Positions 1,720 through 21,966 of a stretch of DNA of 21,966 bases are shown piece by piece. The stretch is from positions 1 through 21,966 of the IMG/VR virus record IMGVR_UViG_3300012920_000317; one strand, given 5' to 3'. Numbering within the stretch: position 1 is the first letter of the stretch; each line of letters begins with the position of its first letter. The notes beneath the pieces are model-generated. The model made no database searches. It saw only the letters and a program-made list of their open reading frames with translations, and was not told the DNA's origin. The translations under genes were made by a program, and so were the position numbers. The stretch is from a virus.

Positions 1720-2247
1720 ATGAATAGTGAAGATAAAGCTTTATTAAATATTATTAGCGGTAAAGATACCGAAAAAAAGGTAATGGTCGGCTATGAAGGT
1801 AAAAAACAAAAACACGGCGATATAAAAAGTCCACTTACAGACATAATGGCAAAAGCAAGAATGCCATGGTTTTGTCCTAAGTGTGACAGTATAATGAAAA
1901 AAAGATTAGACAGGAAAATGTGGATGTTATTCAATCATTGTTTTGAATGTCAAATACAAGAAGAACATGAAATGAGAGTAAATGGAACATTTGAATCTTA
2001 TGAGAAAAAACGATTTTTCCAAAATAGAAAATCTGCAATACTAGAACAAAAAGCAGATATAAAAAATTGGTTGGATATGGGCGATATGGAAGTCGTTGAA
2101 CCTGTTAATATAGATACAGGATTTGTTCACGTTGAAAAATATGAAAGACCACAGTCATTAATAGATGAAGCAAATGAAGCATTAGAACAACTCGATGCTA
2201 CACTAAAAGAAGTTGATTCAATATTGGAAGATTTGAATGAAAAGTAG
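1720..2247 (+). CDS. Small CxxC/CxxC protein in the gp16 position
   Basis: 175 residues, unrecognised by family. Two CxxC pairs, C52/C55 and C74/C77, form a probable four-cysteine zinc-binding ribbon within a basic, aromatic stretch (50-80). The C-terminal 30 residues are a predicted acidic coiled coil (EALEQLDATLKEVDSILE). The gene starts 3 nt after the preceding stop with a CGAGG site at 1709-1713, and its end overlaps the large terminase start by 11 nt, implying translational coupling. T4 encodes its small terminase subunit gp16 immediately upstream of gp17, so this could be a DNA-recognition or packaging regulator. No sequence resemblance to gp16 was seen, so that role is inferred from position only. 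Confidence 0.6.
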   Translation: MNSEDKALLNIISGKDTEKKVMVGYEGKKQKHGDIKSPLTDIMAKARMPWFCPKCDSIMKKRLDRKMWMLFNHCFECQIQEEHEMRVNGTFESYEKKRFFQNRKSAILEQKADIKNWLDMGDMEVVEPVNIDTGFVHVEKYERPQSLIDEANEALEQLDATLKEVDSILEDLNEK

Positions 2248-3808
2248 TGCACAAATAAAAGATGCAATAAAAACAGAATACGTAAAGTGTGCTTTAGATC
2301 CAGTATACTTTATGAGAGAATATTGCTGCATTCAGCATCCTGTTAGAGGAAAAATAAAATTTGATCTTTATCCTTTTCAGGAAAAAACTCTTACTGATTT
2401 TAATCAACATGATTATAATGTGATATTAAAAGCTAGACAGTTAGGTATATCTACATTGTCTGCAGGTTATTCTCTATGGCTGATGAATTTCCACGCAGAT
2501 AAAAACATATTGGTGATTGCTACTAAACAAGAAGTTGCAAAAAATCTTGTAACTAAAGTTAGAGTTATGCATAAGGAATTACCAAACTGGCTAAAACAAG
2601 GCTGTGTTGAAGATAATAAACTATCGTTGCGATATAAAAACGGTTCACAAATAAAAGCAATATCGTCTACAGGTGAAGCAGGTCGATCTGAAGCACTATC
2701 TCTTTTAATAATTGATGAGGCTGCATTTATAAGAAATATTGATGAAATATGGGCAGCAGCACAGCAAACGTTGGCAACTGGAGGAAAGTGTATTGCTCTG
2801 TCCACACCTAATGGAATGGGAAATTGGTTTCATCAAACATGGGTTGGTGCAGAAGAAGGTACAAACGCTTTTAACTTTATAAAACTACACTGGACTGTAC
2901 ATCCTAGTAGAGGACAAGAATGGCGAAACAAGCAAGATAAATTATTAGGTCCAGACATGGCCGCTCAAGAATGTGACTGCGATTTTATTAGTTCAGGTAA
3001 TACAGTAATTCCAGGACCAATTTTAAAGGAATATCAAGATAATTTTCAAACTGCCGAAATAGATAAACGATATGAAGATAATATGTGGATATGGAAGCAT
3101 CCTGATAATAGTAAACGTTATTTAATATCTGCTGACGTTGCTCGTGGAGATGGTAGTGATTATTCTGCATTTCATGTTATGGACATAGATTCTATGGAAC
3201 AAGTAGCCGAATACAAAGGAAAAGTTGATACTACACGTTATGCAAATATTTTAATGTCCGTAGGTACTGAATATAATGATGCATTACTTGTTGTGGAAAA
3301 TAATAACATTGGATGGGCCGTTTTACAAGTGTTATTAGATAGAGAATACAGAAACCTATTTTGGATGAAAAAAGATTTAAAGTATACTGATTCTAAAACA
3401 CAATATACAAACAAATACCGAGGTGAAAATAAAATGATGGTCCCGGGATTTACTACGTCAATGAAAAGTAGACCTTTGATTATTGAAAAACTTTCACAAT
3501 TTGTAAGAGAAAAAGAAATAAAGATAAACTCTATACGAACTATTGACGAACTTTATGTATTTATATACAACAATGGTAAAGCAGAAGCTTTAAAAGGCTA
3601 TAATGACGATTTAGTGATGAGTCTTGCAATTGGTATTTGGATAAGAGAAACTGCTCTTAGACTTTTGGAAGAAGGTATAAATATGACAAAACAAGCAATG
3701 AACAAAATGGATTCCAGTTCTGGAGTTTATACAGTTGAAGATGAGAATGATTACGGCTGGAAACAACATGTTGGTAAAAATAAGGAATCACTAACCTGGT
3801 TAATATAA
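2237..3808 (+). CDS. 17: Terminase large subunit (gp17-like packaging ATPase/nuclease)
   Basis: 523 residues, somewhat shorter than T4 gp17 (610). It powers DNA translocation into the prohead and cuts the concatemer. The ATPase domain shows KARQLGIST (65-73) as Walker A, LLIIDEAAF (156-164) as Walker B with catalytic E161, and STPNG (189-193) as the coupling motif. The C-terminal RNase H-like nuclease shows ADVARGDGSDYS (299-310), VVENNN (352-357) and GYNDDLVMS (454-462), giving candidate metal ligands D300, E354 and D457 or D458. The Walker A lysine is at the start of the motif (K65) rather than before the final Ser/Thr as in T4 gp17 (GKTT), a variant common in phage terminases. The start overlaps the previous gene, with a TTGGAAG site at 2224-2230. 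The portal gene follows after 1 nt. Confidence 0.96.
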   Translation: MKSSAQIKDAIKTEYVKCALDPVYFMREYCCIQHPVRGKIKFDLYPFQEKTLTDFNQHDYNVILKARQLGISTLSAGYSLWLMNFHADKNILVIATKQEVAKNLVTKVRVMHKELPNWLKQGCVEDNKLSLRYKNGSQIKAISSTGEAGRSEALSLLIIDEAAFIRNIDEIWAAAQQTLATGGKCIALSTPNGMGNWFHQTWVGAEEGTNAFNFIKLHWTVHPSRGQEWRNKQDKLLGPDMAAQECDCDFISSGNTVIPGPILKEYQDNFQTAEIDKRYEDNMWIWKHPDNSKRYLISADVARGDGSDYSAFHVMDIDSMEQVAEYKGKVDTTRYANILMSVGTEYNDALLVVENNNIGWAVLQVLLDREYRNLFWMKKDLKYTDSKTQYTNKYRGENKMMVPGFTTSMKSRPLIIEKLSQFVREKEIKINSIRTIDELYVFIYNNGKAEALKGYNDDLVMSLAIGIWIRETALRLLEEGINMTKQAMNKMDSSSGVYTVEDENDYGWKQHVGKNKESLTWLI

Positions 3809-3809
3809 T

Positions 3810-5585
3810 ATGGCAAAACAAGATACATTTTTAGATAGAATAACACGCTTATTTTCAACTAATGTTATAGTAAGAAATATAGGCGGTAAAAAATTACGTG
3901 TAATTGACACCGATGAAATACAACAAGGGTCAAAATCACTAACAGACAGATATACTAAACTGTTTGCAACGAATTATGCCGGTGGTGGTATGATGGGCTA
4001 TTCAGGCGAATTGGCTAAAGCACAAAGACTTGCACTGTTTAGAGATTATGAAGCTATGGACGACGATTCAATTATATCTTCCGCATTAGACGTTTATGCG
4101 GACGAATCAACAATGAAATCGGAATATGGAAACGTTTTAGAAATACATTCTAATAATAATCAAATAAAAGAAATACTGCATAATTTATTTTTTGATATAT
4201 TAAATGTTGAATTTAACTTATGGCCATGGATTCGTAACATGTGTAAGTATGGAGATTTCTTTCTTCATTTAGAAATTACTGAAGATTATGGAGTTACAAA
4301 TGTAATGCCGTTATCTGCGTATGACGTTTCAAGGGTCGAAGGGTTTAATCCTGACAATCCACAAGAAACCAAATTTATATTAGATGCTACAGATCCTAGA
4401 AATGCTCCATCTAATTCTAATAGAACAGAATATCAAAATTTTGAAGTAGCACACTTTAGATTATTGTCAGATTCTAATTATGCACCTTATGGTAAGTCAA
4501 TGGTAGAAGGTGGTAGAAGAACATGGAAACAATTAAGTCTTATGGAAGATGCAATGTTAATCCATAGAATTATGAGAGCTCCTGAAAAAAGAATTTTTAA
4601 AGTTGATATAGGTAATTTACCTCCAAATGAAGTTGATACATACATGAAACGTATTATTGACAAAATGAAAAAAGCGCCTGTGATTGACGATAAAACTGGA
4701 GAATACAATTTAAAATATAACATGCAAAACTTAACTGAAGACTTTTATCTTCCAGTTCGCGGTGGAGATAGCGGAACACAAATAGAAGCTCTTCCAGGAT
4801 TGACTTATGAGGCTGTTGAAGATATTGAATATTTGCGAAATAAAATGTTAGCTTCATTAAAAATACCTAAAGCCTTTTTAGGATATGAAGAACAAGTTGG
4901 ATCTAAAGCAACATTAGCTGCAGAAGATGTTCGTTTTGCAAGAACAATTGAACGTATTCAAAGAATTACAATAAGTGAATTAACAAAAATTGCAGTTGCC
5001 CATTTATATTCGCAAGGATATACTGATGCTGCTCTTGTTGATTTTGAATTAGAATTAACAAATCCTTCTACAATATATGAACAAGAAAGATTAGAATTAT
5101 GGGATTCAAAACAACGAATTGCAAGAGATTTACAAGACTCTTCTTTAGTTTCTAAAAAATGGGTTTATGATAATATTTTTAATTTTTCTGGTGAAGAAGT
5201 CAAGAGTTTAGAAAATGAAATTGTTGACGATAAAAAACAAATTTTTAGACTTTCTTCCATTGAAAATGAAGGAAATGATCCTGCAAAGCCAGATCCACAA
5301 GTAGAACCTCAATCTAGTCCTCGTAAGCATGAAGAAGATGAAGACAATGAAAAGCAGAAACGAGATAAAATGAATAGAGATACCTACAATGTAAAAGATG
5401 TACTTGGGAAATATGATTATACACATTCACAAGAAAGAGATCCATCACCAACAAGACATAATTACAGAAAAGCTAGTCCGCTTGCGCTTGCACATGTTGA
5501 TTTGATGGATAAACATTTCAATAAAAGTGCAAAACTGATAAAAGAAATTGATGAGATGGACGAGTCTCTCAAAGAAAACAAGTAA
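3810..5585 (+). CDS. 20: Portal vertex protein (gp20-like)
   Basis: 591 residues (T4 gp20 is 524). It forms the dodecameric ring at the special vertex through which gp17 pumps DNA and to which the neck attaches; it also nucleates head assembly. Diagnostic T4-type stretches include GKSMVEGGRRTWKQL (about 229-243), MRAPEKRIFKVDIGNLP (about 255-271), NMQNLTEDFYLPVRGG (about 305-320) and the clip/wing helix region ending in KIPKAFLGYEE (about 353-363). The last 110 residues are charged and low in complexity (EEDEDNEKQKRDK) and look like an extension. There is no good Shine-Dalgarno sequence at the start, which lies 1 nt after the gp17 stop, so expression probably depends on coupling. Unlike T4, no sheath or tube gene separates it from gp17. 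Confidence 0.95.
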   Translation: MAKQDTFLDRITRLFSTNVIVRNIGGKKLRVIDTDEIQQGSKSLTDRYTKLFATNYAGGGMMGYSGELAKAQRLALFRDYEAMDDDSIISSALDVYADESTMKSEYGNVLEIHSNNNQIKEILHNLFFDILNVEFNLWPWIRNMCKYGDFFLHLEITEDYGVTNVMPLSAYDVSRVEGFNPDNPQETKFILDATDPRNAPSNSNRTEYQNFEVAHFRLLSDSNYAPYGKSMVEGGRRTWKQLSLMEDAMLIHRIMRAPEKRIFKVDIGNLPPNEVDTYMKRIIDKMKKAPVIDDKTGEYNLKYNMQNLTEDFYLPVRGGDSGTQIEALPGLTYEAVEDIEYLRNKMLASLKIPKAFLGYEEQVGSKATLAAEDVRFARTIERIQRITISELTKIAVAHLYSQGYTDAALVDFELELTNPSTIYEQERLELWDSKQRIARDLQDSSLVSKKWVYDNIFNFSGEEVKSLENEIVDDKKQIFRLSSIENEGNDPAKPDPQVEPQSSPRKHEEDEDNEKQKRDKMNRDTYNVKDVLGKYDYTHSQERDPSPTRHNYRKASPLALAHVDLMDKHFNKSAKLIKEIDEMDESLKENK

Positions 5586-5601: not shown

Positions 5602-5614
5602 ATATTTATAAATG
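5602..5614 (+). promoter_or_regulatory. Candidate T4-type late promoter before the prohead block
   Basis: The 57-nt gap after the portal gene holds ATATTTAT (5602-5609) overlapping TATAAATG (5607-5614). The latter matches 7 of 8 positions of the T4 late promoter element TATAAATA and lies about 29 nt upstream of the next start. Gaps this long are rare in the window, which supports a regulatory role. No transcript data are visible, and in AT-rich DNA such a match can occur by chance. Confidence 0.4.
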
Positions 5615-5642
5615 AACTACTTTAGCTAAAGGAATACTTTTG

Positions 5643-6488
5643 ATGAAACATTCAAAATACAGAAACACCGGGCTGCTATTTGAGTTATTGGTAAGACAAA
5701 TAACGGCAGACATATTAAACAATCAAAAATCTGCTATCGCCGAAAAGATTTTGAAAACTTCTTTTAATAAGAAGTCAGAACTTTTTAAGGAAAATAAATT
5801 CTTTAATGTTCTTATCGAAACAAAGGTTAAATCTAAGGATCAAGCAAAAGATTTAATTGAAAATACTATTCGTGCGTATAATAAAATTGTCAATACAAAA
5901 TCTCTTAATAAGGAAAAATATGAACTTATTAAGCAGATTAAAGAAAATTTTGAACTAAATGATTTTTTAAAATCCAAAGTAGCAAATTATAGATTACTTG
6001 CTTCAATACACAATGTTTTAACTGAAAATTTAGATAATCCTGTCGCATATACAAAGTCAAAATCAACTCTTGTTGAGCACATGACAAACGAAACTAAAAC
6101 AAAAGAGTCAAGTATAGTTGAAACATTAAGAAAAGAAAACAAAGATTTACGAATTTTAGCTTATAAAGTATTAGTAGAACGTTTCAACAAAAAGTATGAT
6201 ACTTTGCTTGGTAGTCAAAAAGACGTTTTAAGAGAATACATTAATAACATTAGTAATACAAATGGACTAAAGGAATATTTGACATCTAGTTTTAATGGTG
6301 TTTTAAAAGAACTAAAAACTATTTTACCACAAGTAGATAATAAAGTGGTCAAAATAAAACTTAGAGAATGCATGTCAATCATAACCGAAGCTAAACCGTC
6401 CAGTAAATCTTATACTAAAGAAATTCTTAAGTTAATGAGGTTTCATCAGCTTTTAGAGGATGTGAAACATGCAATCAAAAAAGCTTAA
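5643..6488 (+). CDS. Unknown helical protein between portal and protease (candidate prohead core protein)
   Basis: 281 residues from ATG 5643; a TTG three bases upstream is in frame, but AAAGGA at 5628-5633 fits the ATG. Lysine-rich and almost entirely predicted helical, with no transmembrane segment or signal peptide. It begins KYRNTGLLFELLVRQITAD (5-23), which looks like the conserved part. In T4 this interval holds the small core proteins gp67 and gp68, so a role in the internal prohead core is a reasonable inference, but no sequence similarity to them is apparent and the protein is much larger than gp67. The next gene starts 20 nt before its stop. Confidence 0.7.
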   Translation: MKHSKYRNTGLLFELLVRQITADILNNQKSAIAEKILKTSFNKKSELFKENKFFNVLIETKVKSKDQAKDLIENTIRAYNKIVNTKSLNKEKYELIKQIKENFELNDFLKSKVANYRLLASIHNVLTENLDNPVAYTKSKSTLVEHMTNETKTKESSIVETLRKENKDLRILAYKVLVERFNKKYDTLLGSQKDVLREYINNISNTNGLKEYLTSSFNGVLKELKTILPQVDNKVVKIKLRECMSIITEAKPSSKSYTKEILKLMRFHQLLEDVKHAIKKA

Positions 6489-6897
6489 AGAATTAATCCG
6501 CACAATAATACAACAAGAACTTAAAGAAATGAGTGTCACCGGTGGAATTGATGGAGGAGCTGGACCACCTAAAACTCCTTATGCGTTTAGAGATCCAAAG
6601 GATAAAGATAAAGATGAAGACGATTTAAAACTTTCTAAGGGCATGTCTGTTGTAAAAGAAAACTATTACCAGTGGAAAAAAGACGACACGCTTTCAACAA
6701 AACAAAAAATTGCAAAGTCTATGTCAGAAATACGCAATAAGATTACAGAAATCGAAAAAATTGTAAAACATAACGTTAAGCTTAAAAACGAAACAAGATT
6801 TAAATCAGACCAGTATTATAAGAGAACAAAAGGAGCTTTAAACAAAATCTCTGAAAAACTTATGAGACTATCAACAAAAATTAAGGATCTAGTATAA
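6469..6897 (+). CDS. Small unknown protein, possible prohead core component
   Basis: 142 residues. A basic N-terminal helix ends in QQELKEMS (15-22), followed by a glycine/proline-rich linker (VTGGIDGGAGPPKTPYAFRD, 23-42), a charged KDKDKDEDD run (45-53), and a helical C-terminal half rich in lysine (60-142). AGAGGA at 6455-6460 is its ribosome site; it overlaps the upstream gene by 20 nt, and its stop TAA shares one base with the protease start. LKE at 18-20 fits the L-x-E pattern cut by T4-type gp21, which would release the N-terminal helix. Function is inferred from location only. Confidence 0.65.
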   Translation: MQSKKLKELIRTIIQQELKEMSVTGGIDGGAGPPKTPYAFRDPKDKDKDEDDLKLSKGMSVVKENYYQWKKDDTLSTKQKIAKSMSEIRNKITEIEKIVKHNVKLKNETRFKSDQYYKRTKGALNKISEKLMRLSTKIKDLV

Positions 6898-7487
6898 TGG
6901 ATAAATCACTAATTATAGACACAATACCGTTTGATGTCACACCAGAAAAAATCAATGAGTCAATGTCAAAAAATAATGGCAGACTTGTTGTAAAAGGGGT
7001 TTTACAAAGAGCTGAATCACGAAATCAGAATGGAAGAGTTTATCCTAAAGAAATATTAGTTCGTGAAGCTAAAAAATATACTTCAGAATTTATAAAAGAA
7101 AGAAGAGCAATGGGCGAGTTAGACCATCCTGATTCTTCTGTTGTTAATTTGCAAAACGTTTCTCATAATGTATTGGAAATGCATTGGGCAAATAACGATT
7201 TAGTTGGAACAGTAGAAGTACTATCAACTCCAGCTGGTAATATTTTAAAAGAATTATTTAAAAGTGGAATTAAATTGGGTATAAGTTCTAGAGGATTAGG
7301 ATCCATAAAGCAAGAAGCTGCAGGTGATCAAGTCCAAAGTGATTTTGAACTTATTGCTTTTGATTTTGTTTCAAATCCTTCTACACATGGAGCATTTTTA
7401 CATCCTGTGAATGAATCAAAAAATCATAATATAAATAAATGGGCAACCGTAGAAAGAGATATTACAAATATCTTATTGGGGAATTAA
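6897..7487 (+). CDS. 21: Prohead core serine protease (gp21-like)
   Basis: 196 residues, similar to T4 gp21 (212). It is packaged in the prohead core and, after assembly, degrades the scaffold and trims the capsid protein so the head can expand and take DNA. The family signature is visible: NGRVYP (45-50), MGELDHP (72-78) with likely catalytic H77, and GISSRGLGS (128-136) with the nucleophile at S130 or S131. A conserved FDFVSNPS (155-162) supplies D156 as a possible third residue. The gene shares one base with the preceding stop (TAATG) and has AAGGA at 6883-6887. Its flanks are unknown proteins that carry candidate cleavage sites, as expected for core substrates. Confidence 0.93.
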   Translation: MDKSLIIDTIPFDVTPEKINESMSKNNGRLVVKGVLQRAESRNQNGRVYPKEILVREAKKYTSEFIKERRAMGELDHPDSSVVNLQNVSHNVLEMHWANNDLVGTVEVLSTPAGNILKELFKSGIKLGISSRGLGSIKQEAAGDQVQSDFELIAFDFVSNPSTHGAFLHPVNESKNHNINKWATVERDITNILLGN

Positions 7488-7488
7488 T

Positions 7489-8439
7489 ATGTCAAAGAAG
7501 AAAACTAATTTAAAAGAAATATTAAATGAATCTATAGGTGGAATTGTTTTTCCTGAAGCAGTTGGTAGTCCATTTAAAGATAAAAATCCTGCAAGTTTAG
7601 TTAAAGTTGCAAAAGAAATACTTAATCAAAATAAAGCTTCTGTAATGGAAAGAGATGAACTTATTTCATCTGTAAATGAATTTAGCAATTTTGGTAAAGA
7701 GATTTATGGTAATCGTAGTATTTCTGAAGTTGGACAAAAATTTGTTGAAATGGCAAAAGCTGCACAAAAACATGTTGTAGATGAAACGCAAGATTGGTTT
7801 GATGCAGTTACTGTAAAAAGAAATATGTCTGAATTAAACAAACATGCACAAAATTTCAATAAACTTGCTTCAGAAGCACAAGCATTACAAGATAGAATGT
7901 CCGCTTTATATGAAGATATGGGTAATATTTACAATCGTTATTTTGAAATAAAAGAATTAAACGAAAGCTATAAAAATAAGTTAGATGAAGCCAGTTATAG
8001 TTTAACAAAAGCTTCCGAGCTTATAGGTGATGGTGATAAAGATGAACAATGGGAAGCTGCAGTTGAATTAACAGGTAAAGTTGTACGCCCAACATCATTA
8101 AAAAAGAATGAAATTTACATAATGCGTGAAAGAAATACGTCACATCATTTCAATTACTCAATGGACAGATTTCCAGTAATCTTTTTAGGTTCAGGCAAAT
8201 ATAACGATAAGAAATATCAATGGTTTGGAGCAAATAAAAAAGTAAAAGATTTAGAATACGGCGAATATTATTATTTTAAAGCTGCAGAAGTCAATAGAAA
8301 TACTGGAAAGGTAACTAAAGTATACATGTTTGGTGCATACCAATGGGGTAAAGGTTTAGCAATCGGTTCTGGTGCAAATAAAGTATCACTATATTCGTTT
8401 AATGCGGCAGCCGCTAAAAAACTAGGAGTAGACAAGTGA
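7489..8439 (+). CDS. Unknown two-part protein next to the prohead protease
   Basis: 316 residues. Residues 35-175 are predicted helical with coiled-coil-like spacing; residues about 188-300 are beta-rich and aromatic (YIMRERNTSHHFNYSMDRF, GKYNDKKYQWFGANKK, EYGEYYYFKAAEV). Near the N-terminus, ILNES (11-15) and FPEAVG (21-26) contain glutamates that could be protease sites. The start is 1 nt after the gp21 stop, with TTGGGGA at 7476-7482. Its stop overlaps the GTG start of the next gene. I do not recognise the family; a head core or inner-head role is inferred from position. Confidence 0.65.
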   Translation: MSKKKTNLKEILNESIGGIVFPEAVGSPFKDKNPASLVKVAKEILNQNKASVMERDELISSVNEFSNFGKEIYGNRSISEVGQKFVEMAKAAQKHVVDETQDWFDAVTVKRNMSELNKHAQNFNKLASEAQALQDRMSALYEDMGNIYNRYFEIKELNESYKNKLDEASYSLTKASELIGDGDKDEQWEAAVELTGKVVRPTSLKKNEIYIMRERNTSHHFNYSMDRFPVIFLGSGKYNDKKYQWFGANKKVKDLEYGEYYYFKAAEVNRNTGKVTKVYMFGAYQWGKGLAIGSGANKVSLYSFNAAAAKKLGVDK

Positions 8440-9614
8440 TAAACGAAGGATTTTTCAAAAATACAAAGAAAAAGTGGCTTATTGAACAAGGTTTAGCTGA
8501 AGCTGATGATAATAAATTTCATATTGGCGGCGGAATATATGTTGACAGTGAAAAAGATAAAGACGATCCAAATGCTAAAAAATATAACAAACAAGGTGAT
8601 AAGTTTGTACCAGTAGATTCAGATGATTCTGGTTCAGGTGACGCTGAAAAGCCTTCTGTAAATATTTTTGATGAACCTGCTGATGAACCTAAAGCTCAAT
8701 CTTCTAATGATGATGATAGACAAATTGGCGGTCCAAATGGTTTAGAAATAGATAGAGATGAAATCAAAGATATATTAATGAAAGATCCTGAAATAGCAGA
8801 TATTTTAGGTGGTGATGATGTATACTGGGATGATGTAGAGTTAGTTTCTTCAAAATTTGATGATGCTACTGTTGCAGAAATAGACCCAGATTCACCAATG
8901 ACTATTGGCGATTTAAAACAAGCTATAAAAGATTTTTCTGAAGAACAAGGCGCAGAACAAGCTGCTCGTGATAATCAAGAATTTGAACCTGTTGAAGATG
9001 ATAAAGATGTAAACAGAATGCAACAGGGAATGCAGCAAGCAATCGGTGGTGATGATTACGAAGATGTACCAGATAGATTAGAATTGCAAGGTAAAATGAA
9101 AGCAGATAATGGTGAAACTATTATTGTATGGAAAGACACAGATGATGGAATGATGATGGGTGTTGATGCAGAAGGTAATGTATATGAAGACGGTGAAAAA
9201 GCACGTTACGGTATTGGAGTATCAACTGCCGGTAGTGTATTCGGTGCAGATCAAAACAAACAAAGAAAAGCTGAATCAGTAAGCTTAGTTGAAAACTGGC
9301 AAAATAGAATAGATGATTTACTTAAAGACCAAAAAGGACATATTTCAAAGCATCATCCAGCTACAGCGTTTAAACCTATACAAGAAGGACCTGCTGATGA
9401 CGATGCAAAGGCTGCTAAAAAAATCGAAAGACAATTACAAGACATATTATGGTCTATTGACAAAGCTGAATCACTTATTACTAAAAACTTATCAGGTTTT
9501 GGCGCTCCAGGTCTAAAACATGCATTTTATGATGCAGTTAAAGCTGGTACAAAAAAACAAGGTTCATTTGATATAATGGCAGCAGGAAAAGTACTTAAAA
9601 AATATTATAAATAA
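8436..9614 (+). CDS. Acidic unknown protein, possible prohead core or scaffold partner
   Basis: 392 residues from a GTG at 8436 that overlaps the previous TGA; AGGAG at 8424-8428 gives ideal spacing and decides the start. The N-terminal 25 residues are basic and end in QGLAEADDN, where LAE (20-22) followed by Ala fits a gp21-type cleavage site. Residues about 45-215 are strongly acidic and disordered (runs of D/E, Q and G). Residues about 220-260 look like a small beta domain (GETIIVWKDTDDGMMMGVD). The C-terminal 80 residues are helical and basic (KAAKKIERQLQDILWSID, AGKVLKKYYK). An acidic body with a basic tail is typical of scaffold-like proteins, but the family is not recognised. Confidence 0.65.
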   Translation: MINEGFFKNTKKKWLIEQGLAEADDNKFHIGGGIYVDSEKDKDDPNAKKYNKQGDKFVPVDSDDSGSGDAEKPSVNIFDEPADEPKAQSSNDDDRQIGGPNGLEIDRDEIKDILMKDPEIADILGGDDVYWDDVELVSSKFDDATVAEIDPDSPMTIGDLKQAIKDFSEEQGAEQAARDNQEFEPVEDDKDVNRMQQGMQQAIGGDDYEDVPDRLELQGKMKADNGETIIVWKDTDDGMMMGVDAEGNVYEDGEKARYGIGVSTAGSVFGADQNKQRKAESVSLVENWQNRIDDLLKDQKGHISKHHPATAFKPIQEGPADDDAKAAKKIERQLQDILWSIDKAESLITKNLSGFGAPGLKHAFYDAVKAGTKKQGSFDIMAAGKVLKKYYK

Positions 9615-9628
9615 AGGTAGGAGGCTAC

Positions 9629-9826
9629 ATGTCCATATACGTTAAGGTTACAAAGAACAAATACGAATTTGCATTAAGAAAATTTAAGAAAAAAGTAAAA
9701 GACTCTGGAATATTACACGAACTACAGCAGCGTCAATTTTATGTAAAACCATCAGCTATAAAAAGAGATAAAAAAGCTAAAGCTAGGCTGCGTGCACAAA
9801 TACGTTCGAAAAAAGCTGAACTTTAG
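9629..9826 (+). CDS. rpsU: Ribosomal protein bS21 homologue
   Basis: 65 residues, the full usual length of bacterial bS21 (about 58-71). The family core is plain: VKVTKNKYEFALRKFKKKV (5-23), SGILHELQQRQFYVKPS (26-42) and a basic C-terminal helix (KRDKKAKARLRAQIRSKK, 45-62). In bacteria bS21 sits on the 30S subunit near the 3' end of 16S rRNA and helps initiation on structured mRNAs. It has a strong site, TAGGAGG at 9617-9623, and lies 14 nt after the preceding head gene, so it is probably co-transcribed with the prohead block. bS21 is known from several phages, including marine ones, and is thought to enter host ribosomes. Here it could favour late phage mRNAs; that is inference. Intact, with no sign of decay. 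Confidence 0.93.
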   Translation: MSIYVKVTKNKYEFALRKFKKKVKDSGILHELQQRQFYVKPSAIKRDKKAKARLRAQIRSKKAEL

Positions 9827-9838
9827 TAAAGTTATATC

Positions 9839-9846
9839 ATATTTAT
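9839..9846. promoter_or_regulatory. ATATTTAT element upstream of the scaffold gene
   Basis: TCATATTTAT (9837-9846) is identical to a decamer at 12755-12764, also in a gap before a structural gene. On the opposite strand it reads TATAAATA, a perfect T4 late promoter core, but that would point towards bS21 and no minus-strand gene exists. It may be a + strand promoter element of this phage or chance in AT-rich DNA. Confidence 0.3.
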
Positions 9847-9860
9847 ACCAAAATCTAATG

Positions 9861-9877
9861 CACCTATATATTAGGTG
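9861..9877 (+). other. Hairpin in the bS21-scaffold spacer
   Basis: CACCTA (9861-9866) and TAGGTG (9872-9877) form a 6-bp stem around a 5-nt loop. No T-run follows, so it is not a convincing terminator; it could be an RNA processing or stability element bounding the highly expressed scaffold-capsid message. The surrounding 117-nt spacer (9827-9943) contains no gene. Confidence 0.4.
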
Positions 9878-9899
9878 TTCCTGAATAATCGAATCTGAT

Positions 9900-9919
9900 T
9901 ATAGTTCCAAATAACTATA
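9900..9919 (+). other. Second hairpin just upstream of the scaffold ribosome site
   Basis: TATAGTT (9900-9906) pairs with AACTATA (9913-9919) around CCAAAT, a 7-bp AT-rich stem. It ends 12 nt before the AGGAG site (9932-9936) of the scaffold gene. A 5' stabilising stem or operator is possible; function unproven. Confidence 0.35.
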
Positions 9920-9943
9920 TAACTCTCTAATAGGAGTAATAAA

Positions 9944-11062
9944 ATGGAAGACATTTTAAAAGAAGCAATTGCTGACGCAAAAGCCGTGCGCGAAACTGCA
10001 TTAGCAAATGCAAAATTAGTCCTTGAAGAGGCATTCACCCCACATCTGAAATCAATGCTTTCTAAAAAGCTTCAATCTGAAGAAGAAGGAATGGAAGCAG
10101 AGGATGAGGAAAAAGCCGATGAAGGTTATCACGGTGAAGATGAAGAAGAAAAAGTTGACGAAAATGACGTTTCTTCTGGAATCGGAGCTAGTGATAATAA
10201 AGAACCTGGCGAAGCTGGTGACTCTTCTGGTGTAGGTCAAGGACCTGAGTCAGAAGGAAGTGAAGAAGAAGAAGGTAGCGAAGATGAAAATCTAGAAAAA
10301 GCACCTGATCAAGCACTCGGTGAAGCATACGACGACGAAGATGAAGATGAAGTCAAAGAAGCCATGGAAGATGAAGACGAAGATAAAGTCGATGAAGCCA
10401 TGGAAGATGAAGACGAAGATAAAGTCGACGAAGGCGAGCACATGGATGACGAAGATGAAGATCTTGCAGAAGTTCTACGTCAATTAGAAGCTGAAATGGC
10501 TGATGAAGACGAAGAAGGAATGGAAGACGAAATGCATCATGAAGGTGAGCACATGGATGATGAAGATGAAGAGATGAAAGAAGAGATGGAAGACGAAGAC
10601 ATGGAAGATGAAGACGTTGACCTCGATGAAATCATCAAAGCACTTTCAGAAGAAGAAGGAATGGAAGACGAAGACGAAGAAAAACAAGAAGAAGCAATGG
10701 TACCTGCTACTGAACTCGAAGAGTACAAGCAAACTGTTCTTTACTTGAAAGATAAGCTTTCTGAAGTCAACCTTCTTAATGCAAAACTTCTTTACACTAA
10801 CAAGCTATTCAGAAGCAGAAACGTATCTGAAGAGCAAAAGATTAAAGTAATCGAGCAATTTGACAGAGCTGCTAATGTACGTGAAGTCAAACTTGTTTAC
10901 TCTACTTTTGCAGAATCAATTAAACGTAAGTCTGTTAACGAATCCGCTCGTAGAAAAAGTCAAGCTTCAAAGCCTGTTGCTTCAACAAAGTCAAAGAAGC
11001 CAATCATCGGTGAAAGTACGGACTTCAAAAGCCGTATGAAGAAATTAGCTAACATTATTTAA
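9944..11062 (+). CDS. 22: Prohead scaffold protein (gp22-like), highly acidic
   Basis: 372 residues (T4 gp22 is 269). It forms the inner scaffold on which the capsid assembles and is later degraded by gp21. The C-terminal quarter carries the recognisable gp22 region: NLLNAKLLYTNKLFRSRNVS (about 274-293) and VIEQFDRAANVREVKLVYSTF (about 301-321, cited in part), then a basic tail ending MKKLANII. The middle (about 45-255) is an extraordinary Asp/Glu/Met run with internal repeats. Near the N-terminus, ILKEA (4-8) and LEEA (27-30) fit gp21 cleavage sites. AGGAG at 9932-9936 precedes the start. The major capsid gene follows after 13 nt. Codon use shifts here towards GAC, GTC and CTT compared with the upstream genes, as expected for strong expression. 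Confidence 0.9.
   Translation: MEDILKEAIADAKAVRETALANAKLVLEEAFTPHLKSMLSKKLQSEEEGMEAEDEEKADEGYHGEDEEEKVDENDVSSGIGASDNKEPGEAGDSSGVGQGPESEGSEEEEGSEDENLEKAPDQALGEAYDDEDEDEVKEAMEDEDEDKVDEAMEDEDEDKVDEGEHMDDEDEDLAEVLRQLEAEMADEDEEGMEDEMHHEGEHMDDEDEEMKEEMEDEDMEDEDVDLDEIIKALSEEEGMEDEDEEKQEEAMVPATELEEYKQTVLYLKDKLSEVNLLNAKLLYTNKLFRSRNVSEEQKIKVIEQFDRAANVREVKLVYSTFAESIKRKSVNESARRKSQASKPVASTKSKKPIIGESTDFKSRMKKLANII
10361..10432 (+). repeat. Two tandem 36-bp units in the scaffold acidic region
   Basis: Units 10361-10396 and 10397-10432 both encode AMEDEDEDKVDE and differ by one synonymous base (GAT/GAC), so this is a recent duplication. A more degraded copy precedes them (ending EDEVKE). A separate GEHMDDEDE segment occurs at about 10434-10460 and again at about 10543-10569. 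Confidence 0.85.
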
Positions 11063-11075
11063 TTAGGAGAATATA

Positions 11076-12674
11076 ATGTCTTATAACGATCAATTGAAAG
11101 ACGTAATGGGCGGATACAATCCTCATAATGAGCTTCTAGCTTCCTCTCGTAAATTGGTTTCTAAGTGGGAACCGACTGGCCTTTTAGAAGGAATTAGTAA
11201 CGAGAGTGAAACTGCCGGTATGGCTGTTCTCTTGGAAAACCAAGCAAAACAGTTAATCGACGAAGCTTCACAAGTTGGAACTTCAGCTAATCAAGAACAA
11301 TGGAGTGGTGTTGCACTACCTCTAGTTCGTAGAATATTTGCTGAACTTTCTGCACAGGAATTTGTTTCTGTTCAACCTATGAATTTACCAAGTGGTCTGA
11401 TTTTCTATCTTGATTTCAAGTATGGATCAACTCAGTCTGCAGGTAAACTTCATGCAAAAGATTCTGATCTTTATGGTGATACATCAAGTTCAGGCGACCC
11501 TAGTGGCGGTCTTTATGGCGCTGGTAAATGGGGTTACTCAATAAACGATCAAGCTGCAAATGCTACAGTATCTGCGGGTGCTACAGCTTCTGTTGCTGAT
11601 GTTCGTTTCGATGCTAATCTATCTGCTTCTGCAGCAGCTGGTAATTTGAAAAAGATTTCATTTACTAGACCTGCAGGTTCAGACGTAGATGGTATCAAAG
11701 CATGGGCCATTTCTGGTTCTGCTGCAGGTAAAGTCATTGCACAATACCCTGCTTTCGCATCTATAAGTGGTACTACTGTTAGTATGATTATTTCTGGTTC
11801 TGTTAAAGAAACTGAAACAGTCAACGTAATGTATCACGTTGCTCCATCTGATACAACAAGAGGTGACTTTGAAGTCACTCCAGCTGCTGAAGGATCTAAT
11901 CCTGAAGAAGCTAATGCAGGTATACCTGAAGTTGATATCCAGATGAAGTCAATTCCAATCACTGCTAAAACTCGTAAGTTAAAAGCAATTTGGACTCCTG
12001 AGCTTGCTCAAGACCTTAATGCTTATCACGCTGTTGACGCTGAAGCTGAATTAACTGCTCTTCTTTCTGAGTATGTAACAATGGAAATCGATCTTGAGAT
12101 CATTGACATGTTAAAAATCAACGCTTCTGCAAAAACCGAGTATTGGTCTGCTAAAGTTGGATTTGATTGGAATGGTTCCGCGTTTGAAGCCATCAGTGCT
12201 GCATCTAATGCATACACTAAGAATGAGTGGTTCCAAACTCTTGGAAACAAAATACAAGCAGTATCAAATGCAATCCATAAGAAAACCTTAAGAGGTGGTG
12301 CTAACTTTATGGTCGTAAGTCCAGAAGTTGCAACTATTCTTGAGTCTATCCCAGGATTTGCTACTGATTCTGATGCTGATGTTACTAAGAACTACGCTAT
12401 GGGCGTTCAGAAGATTGGTAACTTAGCAAATCGTTTCAACGTGTTTAAGAATCCTTATTTACAGGACGATCAAATCCTATGTGGATTTAGAGGAGCTCAG
12501 TTCCTAGAAACAGGAGCTGTTTATGCACCTTACGTTCCGTTGATCTTAACACCTGTTGTTTACGATCCAACCAACTTTACACCAAGACGTGGTGTGATGA
12601 CACGTTATGCTAAGAAGATGATTCGACCAGAATTCTACGGCTTAGTTAACGTTGCTGATTCAGGTCTTGTTTAA
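11076..12674 (+). CDS. 23: Major capsid protein (gp23-like)
   Basis: 532 residues (T4 gp23 is 521). HK97-fold shell protein. The T4-type signature is clear in KLKAIWTPELAQDLNAYHAV (301-320) with DAEAEL after it, plus SVQPMNLPSGLIFY (88-101) and the C-terminal RPEFYGLVNVADSG. The N-terminal propeptide probably ends after IDE (61-63) before ASQVG: it matches the gp21 rule and lies at nearly the same place as the T4 cut at residue 65. Residues about 160-260 are a Ser/Ala/Gly/Thr-rich beta stretch. The start has AGGAG at 11065-11069. It is the last gene before a strong terminator. Leucine codons here are mostly CTN, whereas upstream genes favour TTA, a sign of high expression. Confidence 0.96.
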   Translation: MSYNDQLKDVMGGYNPHNELLASSRKLVSKWEPTGLLEGISNESETAGMAVLLENQAKQLIDEASQVGTSANQEQWSGVALPLVRRIFAELSAQEFVSVQPMNLPSGLIFYLDFKYGSTQSAGKLHAKDSDLYGDTSSSGDPSGGLYGAGKWGYSINDQAANATVSAGATASVADVRFDANLSASAAAGNLKKISFTRPAGSDVDGIKAWAISGSAAGKVIAQYPAFASISGTTVSMIISGSVKETETVNVMYHVAPSDTTRGDFEVTPAAEGSNPEEANAGIPEVDIQMKSIPITAKTRKLKAIWTPELAQDLNAYHAVDAEAELTALLSEYVTMEIDLEIIDMLKINASAKTEYWSAKVGFDWNGSAFEAISAASNAYTKNEWFQTLGNKIQAVSNAIHKKTLRGGANFMVVSPEVATILESIPGFATDSDADVTKNYAMGVQKIGNLANRFNVFKNPYLQDDQILCGFRGAQFLETGAVYAPYVPLILTPVVYDPTNFTPRRGVMTRYAKKMIRPEFYGLVNVADSGLV

Positions 12675-12701: not shown

Positions 12702-12732
12702 AAAAGGGCCCCTGCTTTGGGGCCCTTTTTTT
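12702..12732 (+). terminator. Strong intrinsic terminator after the major capsid gene
   Basis: AAAAGGGCCCC (12702-12712) pairs perfectly with GGGGCCCTTTT (12719-12729) around loop TGCTTT, an 11-bp GC-rich stem, and the T-run continues to 12732. It lies 28 nt after the capsid stop and would end the scaffold-capsid message. Confidence 0.95.
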
Positions 12733-19234: not shown

Positions 19235-21966
19235 ATGGCAAAAGATCATACTATAAAACTTAAACGTTCGGCTGTACAAGGTAAAGCCCCTGATACAGGG
19301 AGTCTATCTTTAGGTGAGCTGGCGATTAATACGTATGATGGAAAAATATTTTTTGAAAGAAGTGGAAGTGTTGAAAGCGTACAGCAAATTGTTACAACAG
19401 ATGCACATACTTCAGGTTCTATAGACGTTTCAGGAGCGGTATCAGCTTCATTTTTTAAAGGCGATGCATCAGGATTAACTAATATTCCAACAGGACCTCA
19501 GGGTCCACAAGGCAACCAAGGTAACCAAGGAAATCAAGGTAATCAAGGACCTCAAGGTAACCAAGGTAATCAGGGTAACCAAGGAAATCAGGGCAGACAA
19601 GGCCCACAGGGACCGCAAGGTAATCAAGGAAATCAAGGTAACCAAGGTAATCAGGGTAACCAAGGTAATCAAGGACCGCAAGGTACACAAGGTAACCAAG
19701 GAAATCAGGGTAATCAAGGTAACCAAGGCAATCAAGGAAGACAAGGTCCACAGGGTCCATTAGGACCACAAGGTAACCAGGGTAATCAAGGACCACAAGG
19801 TAACCAAGGTAATCAAGGTAACCAAGGTCGGCAAGGTCCTTTAGGTCCACAAGGGCCGCAAGGTAATCAAGGTAACCAGGGTAATCAGGGTAATCAAGGA
19901 CCATTAGGTCCACAAGGACCACAAGGCAATCAAGGAAACCAAGGAAGACAAGGACCACTTGGACCTCAGGGTAATCAGGGCAATCAAGGAAACCAAGGTA
20001 ATCAAGGTAACCAAGGTAACCAAGGTAATCAAGGACCCCAAGGACCACAAGGTAATCAGGGACCGCTTGGACCACAAGGTAACCAAGGTAATCAAGGAAA
20101 TCAAGGTCCTGAAGGTAATTTTGGTGGTGCAACTTTTGAATATGTGTTTGATACGACCACAACTTCCGCAGATCCAGGGACAGGGAAATTAAGACTAAAT
20201 CAGACTGGACAAAACATTTCTACAAACATCTATTTAGATGAAGAAGACGTTAACGGTACAGATATATCAAATTATTTAGTTACAATTGACGATTCAACTT
20301 CTACGTTAAAGGGTCACGTAAGAATAACAAACAAATTAGACTCTTCTCAATTTTTATTAGGTACTATATCTAGTCAAACCGATAATGCTGGCTGGCATAC
20401 AATTGTTATTTCAATTGTTGACTCTTCTGAAACATCTCCATTTGAAAACTCAGAAGAAATACTTGTTACATTTGCCAGAACAGGTGATAAAGGCGACACT
20501 GGAGCACAAGGTCCACAAGGACCACTCGGACCTCAAGGAAATCAAGGTAATCAGGGTAATCAAGGTAACCAAGGTCGTCAAGGACCAACAGGGCCGCAGG
20601 GTAACCAAGGTGATACTGGACCGCAGGGCAACCAAGGTAATCAAGGTAATCAGGGTAACCAAGGTCCACAAGGACGTCAAGGCGATTTTGGCCCACAGGG
20701 TAACCAAGGTAATCAAGGAAGACAAGGTCCACAAGGACCACAAGGTAATCAGGGTAACCAAGGTAATCAAGGTCGTCAAGGTGATACAGGTCCACAAGGT
20801 AACCAGGGCAACCAAGGTAATCAAGGAAATCAAGGTGATATAGGACCACAAGGTGATTTTGGTCCACAGGGTAATCAAGGTAACCAGGGTAATCAAGGCC
20901 GTCAAGGTCCACAAGGACGTCAAGGTGATTTTGGTCCACAAGGAAATCAAGGTAACCAAGGTAATCAGGGAAGACAAGGACCGCAAGGTCAAACAGGTCC
21001 ACAAGGTAATCAAGGCAATCAAGGTAATCAGGGTAACCAAGGTAATCAAGGTCCAGTAGGACCACAAGGTGACCAAGGTGATACAGGTCCACAGGGTAAC
21101 CAGGGAAATCAAGGAAGACAAGGTCCGCAGGGACGTCAAGGTAATACTGGCCCACAAGGAAATCAAGGTCCACATGGACCAACAGGCCCACAAGGTTATC
21201 AAGGTCGTCAAGGACCGAATGGACCACAAGGTGATATTGGACCACAAGGTGATACTGGAGCACAAGGTAATCAAGGAAACCAAGGTGATATAGGACCGCA
21301 AGGACCAATAGGACCGCTTGGACCTCAGGGAAATCAAGGTAATCAAGGAAATCAGGGCAGACAAGGTCCACAAGGAAATCAAGGACCACTTGGACCCCAA
21401 GGTAGCCAAGGTGATACAGGACCTCAAGGTAACCAAGGTAATCAGGGAAATCAAGGTAACCAAGGTAACCAAGGAAATCAAGGTCGTCAAGGTCCACAAG
21501 GTTCAGATGGTCCATTAGGCCCACAAGGTAACCAAGGTAGACAAGGTCCACAAGGTGAATCTGGAAATGTTGGTGCATTAGGTCCACAAGGACCTGAAGG
21601 TAATTTTGGTGGTGTAACATTTAAATTTACATTTTCAACCGTTACTAATTCAGAAGATCCTGGAACAGGAAAATTAGCATTAAACAATTCTACTCAGGAT
21701 TCTTCTACATCAATACATGTAGATCAAGTTGATGGTACTGGTACAGATATAGAAAATTATTTAACTACGATAGACGATTCAACATCTTCAATAAAAGGTC
21801 ATGTTAGAATATCTAATAGAACAGATCAATCGCAATACATATTATTTACTATTGCAAGTGTTAATGATGAAGCTGATTGGTACAAAATTGTTGGTTCTGT
21901 CGTTGAATCAAGTGAAACCAGTCCTTTTTCAGACGGTGAAGGAGTTATTGCAACATTTGCAAGAAC
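19235..21966 (+). CDS. Giant modular collagen-like fibre protein (partial, runs off the window)
   Basis: ATG 19235 follows AAGGAGG (19218-19224). I followed the frame to the window edge: 910 codons and two bases, no stop. Residues 1-86 are an N-terminal attachment domain: [31 protein letters not shown] (a head common in phage fibres) and [14 protein letters not shown]. Residues 87-296 are 70 uninterrupted Gly-X-Y triplets; 297-416 a 120-residue beta-rich domain (starts GGATFEYVF, ends VTFART); 417-791 another 125 triplets; 792 onward a second copy of the domain, cut by the window. Proline occurs only at X, so hydroxyproline is not needed; a trimeric collagen helix is expected. It should form long, stiff filaments on the virion, perhaps for adhesion. 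The final part, including any receptor-binding tip, is missing here. Confidence 0.92.
19493..20122 (+). repeat. Collagen-like tract 1, 70 Gly-X-Y triplets dominated by GNQ
   Basis: By hand count: 41 GNQ, 17 GPQ, 5 GPL, 4 GRQ and one each of GTQ, GPE and GNF. There is no interruption. The only charged residues are four Arg and one Glu. The 9-base units vary at all three wobble positions (GGT/GGA/GGC, AAT/AAC, CAA/CAG). Confidence 0.95.
20123..20482 (+). repeat. Fibre domain copy A (120 residues)
   Basis: First copy of an inter-collagen domain, with DPGTGKL, GTDI, TIDDSTS, KGHVRI and SSETSPF as fixed points. Hand alignment to copy B gives 71 identical residues of 120 with no gaps. It is probably a compact beta domain that nucleates or locks the trimer between collagen tracts. 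Confidence 0.9.
20483..21607 (+). repeat. Collagen-like tract 2, 125 Gly-X-Y triplets with acidic units
   Basis: Uninterrupted. Besides GNQ, GPQ and GRQ it holds about 14 triplets with Asp at X (GDT, GDI, GDF and others), which tract 1 lacks. It opens with GDKGDTGAQ and closes with GPEGNFG, the same closing sequence as tract 1. Confidence 0.95.
21608..21966 (+). repeat. Fibre domain copy B, cut one base before its end
   Basis: Second copy of the 120-residue domain (starts GGVTFKFTF, ends ATFART). The window stops two bases into the last codon by comparison with copy A, so a third collagen tract probably begins just outside. Confidence 0.88.

Follow-up and report, generated by a model that had tools for sequence, protein, structure and literature searches.

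The T4-like aquatic phage that is the source of the window (the whole 21,966-nt virus record analysed here, with its T4-like head block) carries a genuine gene for ribosomal protein bS21 among its head genes, and we suggest, at a probability of about 0.55, that a working phage bS21 is made late from a transcript starting near position 5603, that it replaces the host bS21, and that the altered ribosomes initiate well on virion mRNAs bearing a Shine-Dalgarno (SD) sequence. This reading builds on the membership of the protein in the bS21 family, on purifying selection, on the constant position of the gene among the head genes and on a promoter-like motif that is specific for structural genes. Aquatic viruses commonly encode bS21, and the exchange on the 30S subunit would parallel the behaviour of the homologue from the pelagiphage HTVC008M, which enters E. 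coli 70S ribosomes (Mizuno 2019, PMC6375957).

The first-pass annotation had read the gene as an intact bS21 homologue, and this is confirmed: the ORF matches Pfam PF01165 (Ribosomal_S21; E 3.1e-13; score 49.6 bits, curated cut-off 27) over the full domain, from profile position 2 to 53 of 55, as well as PHROG 21469 ('ribosomal protein S21'), and it is under purifying selection, with a median dN/dS of 0.10 (226 pairs, 24 clade members). Proteins 80-89% identical are encoded in 22 IMG/VR contigs and proteins about 60% identical in six more, with the gene in the identical place wherever a contig covers the locus; the surrounding gene order is kept in at least 25 relatives, and the place is common to dozens of distant ones. 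The gene is therefore not a chance ORF. Residue 54 is leucine and not the aromatic residue of Bacteroidia-type bS21, which is associated with anti-SD sequestration. The match to Flavobacterium johnsoniae bS21 covers residues 12-53 in both proteins with no net gap and is the weakest among the bacterial cellular matches. Tyr54 as the key to SD use was considered and rejected, since bS21s with and without an aromatic residue there both co-occur with SDs. A genome scan for a bacterial donor returned two loci only, a phage-like contig in a euryarchaeal MAG and Termititenax. The same phage block is seen in a contig of a 'Euryarchaeota' MAG (L032, PBHZ01000028.1); as bS21 is a bacterial protein, this contig probably comes from a phage and was mis-binned.

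In the original description of the locus the gene lay between core-type genes and the scaffold and capsid genes. The gene order and the identities of gp17, gp20, gp21 and gp23 hold; the two core-type genes (orf7489 and orf8436) have no convincing family match, and the scaffold-like gene, which has no match in Pfam or PHROG, is assigned by position and composition (Table 1). In adjoining the TerL, portal, protease and major capsid genes, the window's bS21 resembles that of phages of freshwater Bacteroidetes, in which bS21 lies close to the TerL, portal, prohead protease and major capsid genes and in which late expression was shown by metatranscriptomics (Chen 2022, PMC9723584); there, among 900 published bS21 phages, 388 carry one or more of six structural gene types no further than ten genes away. 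Their bS21 is encoded on the strand opposite to the structural genes, with an aromatic residue 54, whereas the window's gene lies on the + strand like the structural genes, encodes Leu54 and belongs to a clade that uses SDs. At the window's end (19235-21964) lies a gene for a long collagen-like repeat protein, probably a tail fibre, with partial matches in some relatives.

Table 1. Features of the head block around the bS21 gene
Feature	Position	Strand	Remarks
TerL (gp17)	2237-3808		identity confirmed by Pfam/PHROG
Portal (gp20)	3810-5585		identity confirmed by Pfam/PHROG
TATTTATA, putative late promoter of a transcript with bS21 as its predicted last gene	5603-5610	+	before orf5640
orf5640, orf6469, gp21 protease, orf7489, orf8436	5640-9614	+	5' of bS21, same putative late transcript
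gp21 protease	6897-7487	+	identity confirmed by Pfam/PHROG
AGGAGG, SD site of bS21	9619-9624	+	from sequence; GAGG kept in relatives of the clade
Phage bS21 gene, 65 aa	9629-9826	+	ATG start, TAG stop
TATTTATA, putative late promoter of scaffold and gp23	9840-9847	+	between bS21 and scaffold
Leader hairpin I, GCACCTA..TAGGTGT	9860-9878	+	100% paired across 24 sequences, compensatory changes at two pairs
Leader hairpin III, TATAGTT-CCAAAT-AACTATA	9900-9919	+	covariation in 110 leaders
Small hairpin, scaffold SD (AGGAG, 9932-9936) paired with upstream CTC	9922-9937	+	two double-change pairs; 93.5% paired
Acidic scaffold-like gene (gp22 position)	9944-11062	+	position before gp23 and acidic composition only
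gp23 major capsid protein	11076-12674	+	Pfam PF07068, E 4e-76
Terminator-like hairpin between gp23 and neck gene	12702-12729	+	strong GC-rich 11-pair stem, T run; scored on both strands

Late timing has support in the sequence. In 15 superclade genomes or long contigs, motifs resembling TATTTATA precede 45 of 73 structural genes (counting those that follow a gap of at least 50 nt) but only 4 of 57 genes with replication or other known functions (Fisher p 3.5e-11, an optimistic value because the motif class was picked after the leaders had been inspected), and they lie in the forward orientation, on the coding strand, in 118 cases versus 28 in reverse. A motif-like sequence occupies the site equivalent to 5603 in 35 of 38 relatives, and such a motif is present in 94 of 109 scaffold leaders, in most cases 90-130 nt ahead of the ATG. 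We consider TATTTATA a candidate late promoter specific to structural genes in the superclade. The six-gene run downstream of the motif at 5603 ends in bS21, and on the + strand of this upstream run no terminator-like site was found. With one motif at 5603 and another at 9840, bS21 appears to be the last gene of one late transcript, and scaffold-gp23 appears to open the next, which would end at the hairpin at 12702-12729. The proposal that bS21 is expressed late with the head genes is thus supported by the structural-gene motif and by the metatranscriptomes of other bS21 phages (PMC9723584). A different sequence directly before bS21, TATAAATA at 9606-9613, was examined as a T4 late promoter and rejected, as it is absent from relatives.

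SDs are found on 46-66% of the genes in the window's clade, compared with 6-24% in control windows, and on 56% compared with 6% in the window itself. Given this genome-wide use, the AGGAG sites close to bS21 do not single out capsid genes, and the window's host probably uses SDs. The first-pass suggestion that bS21 tunes ribosomes towards capsid mRNAs by way of AGGAG sites is accordingly not supported for the window's phage; the general idea, which had already been published (Mizuno 2019, PMC6375957; Chen 2022, PMC9723584), survives as a testable hypothesis, since SDs concentrate on virion genes in SD-poor sister lineages with bS21. No SD analysis of phage genes was found in the searched parts of Chen 2022.

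Across about 100 superclade relatives an SD precedes gp23 in 37 of 42 phages with bS21 versus 4 of 54 without it (p 1e-16), where absence was assessed along the full length of the long contigs and only locally in shorter fragments, so that some of the bS21-less calls may be wrong. In control windows shifted further upstream the two groups do not differ (p 1 and 0.57), and their GC content is equal. In SD-poor genomes with bS21, SDs are carried by 67 of 144 structural genes (47%), 14 of 74 replication genes and 129 of 839 others, and in SD-poor genomes without it by 6 of 113 (5%), 1 of 73 and 39 of 553, a grouping made after the data were seen and with gene starts from a simple longest-ATG caller. 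Two genomes with bS21, G004 and G006, have little SD enrichment on virion genes. The bS21 starts were read in seven bS21-bearing genomes outside the window's clade: five lack an SD (G005, G006, G007, G009 and G010), the outcome for G004 depends on which start codon is right, and G016 has a weak match. G016 (L346) was reassigned to the bS21-bearing group on account of a bS21 located about 106 kb from its head block; despite this distance, some of its virion genes carry SDs. The gp23 tree requires at least six bS21 changes, and in six independent pairs on it SD use follows bS21 in about 4.2 and opposes it in 0.2 (median p 0.125). With only about six independent changes the association is not phylogenetically significant, and across the superclade it is correlative.

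Combining the timing and SD data, we suggest a model in which (i) transcription from the late promoter near 5603 would end with bS21, (ii) the phage bS21 would swap for host bS21 on the 30S platform beside the 3' tail of 16S rRNA, and (iii) the altered ribosomes would initiate well on SD-bearing virion mRNAs during the bulk synthesis of head and tail proteins. The window's host probably uses SDs in any case, and there the benefit would be quantitative; among SD-poor relatives bS21 may open SD-led initiation selectively for virion genes. A precedent exists in F. johnsoniae, where bS21 content affects SD use (PMC9976891): in rpsU autoregulation, there a host mechanism, it likewise decides whether ribosomes use SDs. 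Several points count against the model: no preference of SDs for capsid genes is visible in the window's clade, the independent pairs on the gp23 tree are few, G004 and G006 have little SD enrichment on virion genes, and in vitro translation by E. coli ribosomes carrying the HTVC008M protein fell to about 5% (PMC6375957). A stricter version, which we regard as tentative and rather unlikely, is a late switch in which phage bS21 would free the anti-SD tail of SD-blind ribosomes, SDs would mark mainly virion mRNAs, and bS21 itself would be made without an SD by unmodified ribosomes, members with SD-using hosts such as the window's phage being a relaxed version. Host rpsU of F. johnsoniae carries an extended SD (PMC9976891), whereas the bS21 genes of SD-poor phages mostly have none.

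The main rival to ribosome takeover, a live one that we consider a real possibility if not the likelier account, is that the phages differ only in their hosts: those without bS21 would infect SD-blind Bacteroidota and those with it hosts with full SD use or with SD use on highly expressed genes, so that SD use mirrors the host and bS21 is a general translation helper without choice of mRNA. Hosts are on record only for immuto and, as recorded, for Mel-JY01 (Microcystis), and the latter shows, in keeping with this account, a milder structural bias (48% versus 22%). The genome-wide SDs of the window's clade fit this account, as do the SDs throughout G023, a fragment of 48 kb that yielded no bS21, and the fact that genomes without bS21 are SD-depleted below control while the SD-poor ones with it are near control. 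It fits poorly with G032, which adjoins the immuto-like group without bS21 on the gp23 tree and whose bS21 is Flavobacterium-like (best solved match F. johnsoniae, 7jil), yet which has SDs on 8 of 10 structural genes versus 1 of 11 others. Alternatively, phage bS21 may only fill gaps in host ribosomes once the supply of host bS21 dwindles late in infection, with the initiation preference unaltered. Such a repair function agrees with the loose, exchangeable binding of bS21 (PMC6375957) and with a gene under purifying selection whose family core is kept, but it does not predict the association between SDs and bS21, and we consider it improbable.

A further alternative places the action of bS21 in the 117-nt gap between its gene and the scaffold gene, where two hairpins and a small SD-pairing stem show compensatory changes. 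Hairpin III is paired in 98.8% of cells in 110 leaders aligned without reference to pairing, versus 73.1% (at most 75.7%) after shuffling and 30-48% after sliding, with 47 distinct arm pairs. It usually lies about 20-35 nt ahead of the start codon, which would put it close to the mRNA exit of an initiating 30S subunit. Rfam has no match near 9827-9943 in the window and none that is convincing in four related loci. Direct regulation of the scaffold leader by bS21 binding to this hairpin is suggested by its site between the two genes and by the presence of bS21 just upstream in all 85 testable scaffold loci found by the hairpin motif. The 85/85 linkage arose because the search pattern and earlier bS21-baited loci had selected one subclade, and it collapsed in a sample baited with gp23, independent of both, which showed the hairpin in phages without bS21 too. 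Relatives lacking bS21, Flavobacterium phage immuto among them, conserve it just as well. We therefore rejected the hairpin as a bS21-specific element and assign it to the scaffold mRNA, and direct leader binding is very improbable. In the genomes searched, matches to hairpin III with clearly better scores (24-37 bits versus about 21 for the rest) lie only beside the scaffold gene (in the window, G001, G002 and Mel-JY01), although further copies elsewhere are possible, given that the model missed the scaffold leaders of immuto, G008 and G005.

Characterized relatives share parts of this arrangement. In Microcystis phage Mel-JY01 (PP395634) bS21 likewise lies between the protease and a scaffold-like gene on the same strand, and a related leader hairpin (TAGAGTT..AACTCTA) is present; unlike in the window, two extra genes separate bS21 from the scaffold-like gene and SD use is intermediate. 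Immuto (NC_055915) has a related head block and leader hairpin but lacks bS21 in the product list of the 125 kb examined and has almost no SDs. The bS21 of HTVC008M, a marine T4-like myovirus of Pelagibacter (PMC6375957), is 50% identical to the window's over residues 1-42 and sits between a CobS-like gene and Hsp20, whereas the window's lies in the head block.

As a late bS21 in the head block has already been published, the window's gene extends a known phage habit. The additions made here are the late-type motif, the covarying hairpin of the scaffold leader, which may represent a new RNA family before the scaffold-capsid genes of these T4-like phages, and the superclade pattern of SDs and bS21. 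This pattern addresses the question of why so many aquatic phages carry bS21, and it makes the published idea of ribosome takeover testable: it yields a concrete expectation, namely that mRNA choice shifts upon ribosome exchange, and it names sister phages with and without the gene.
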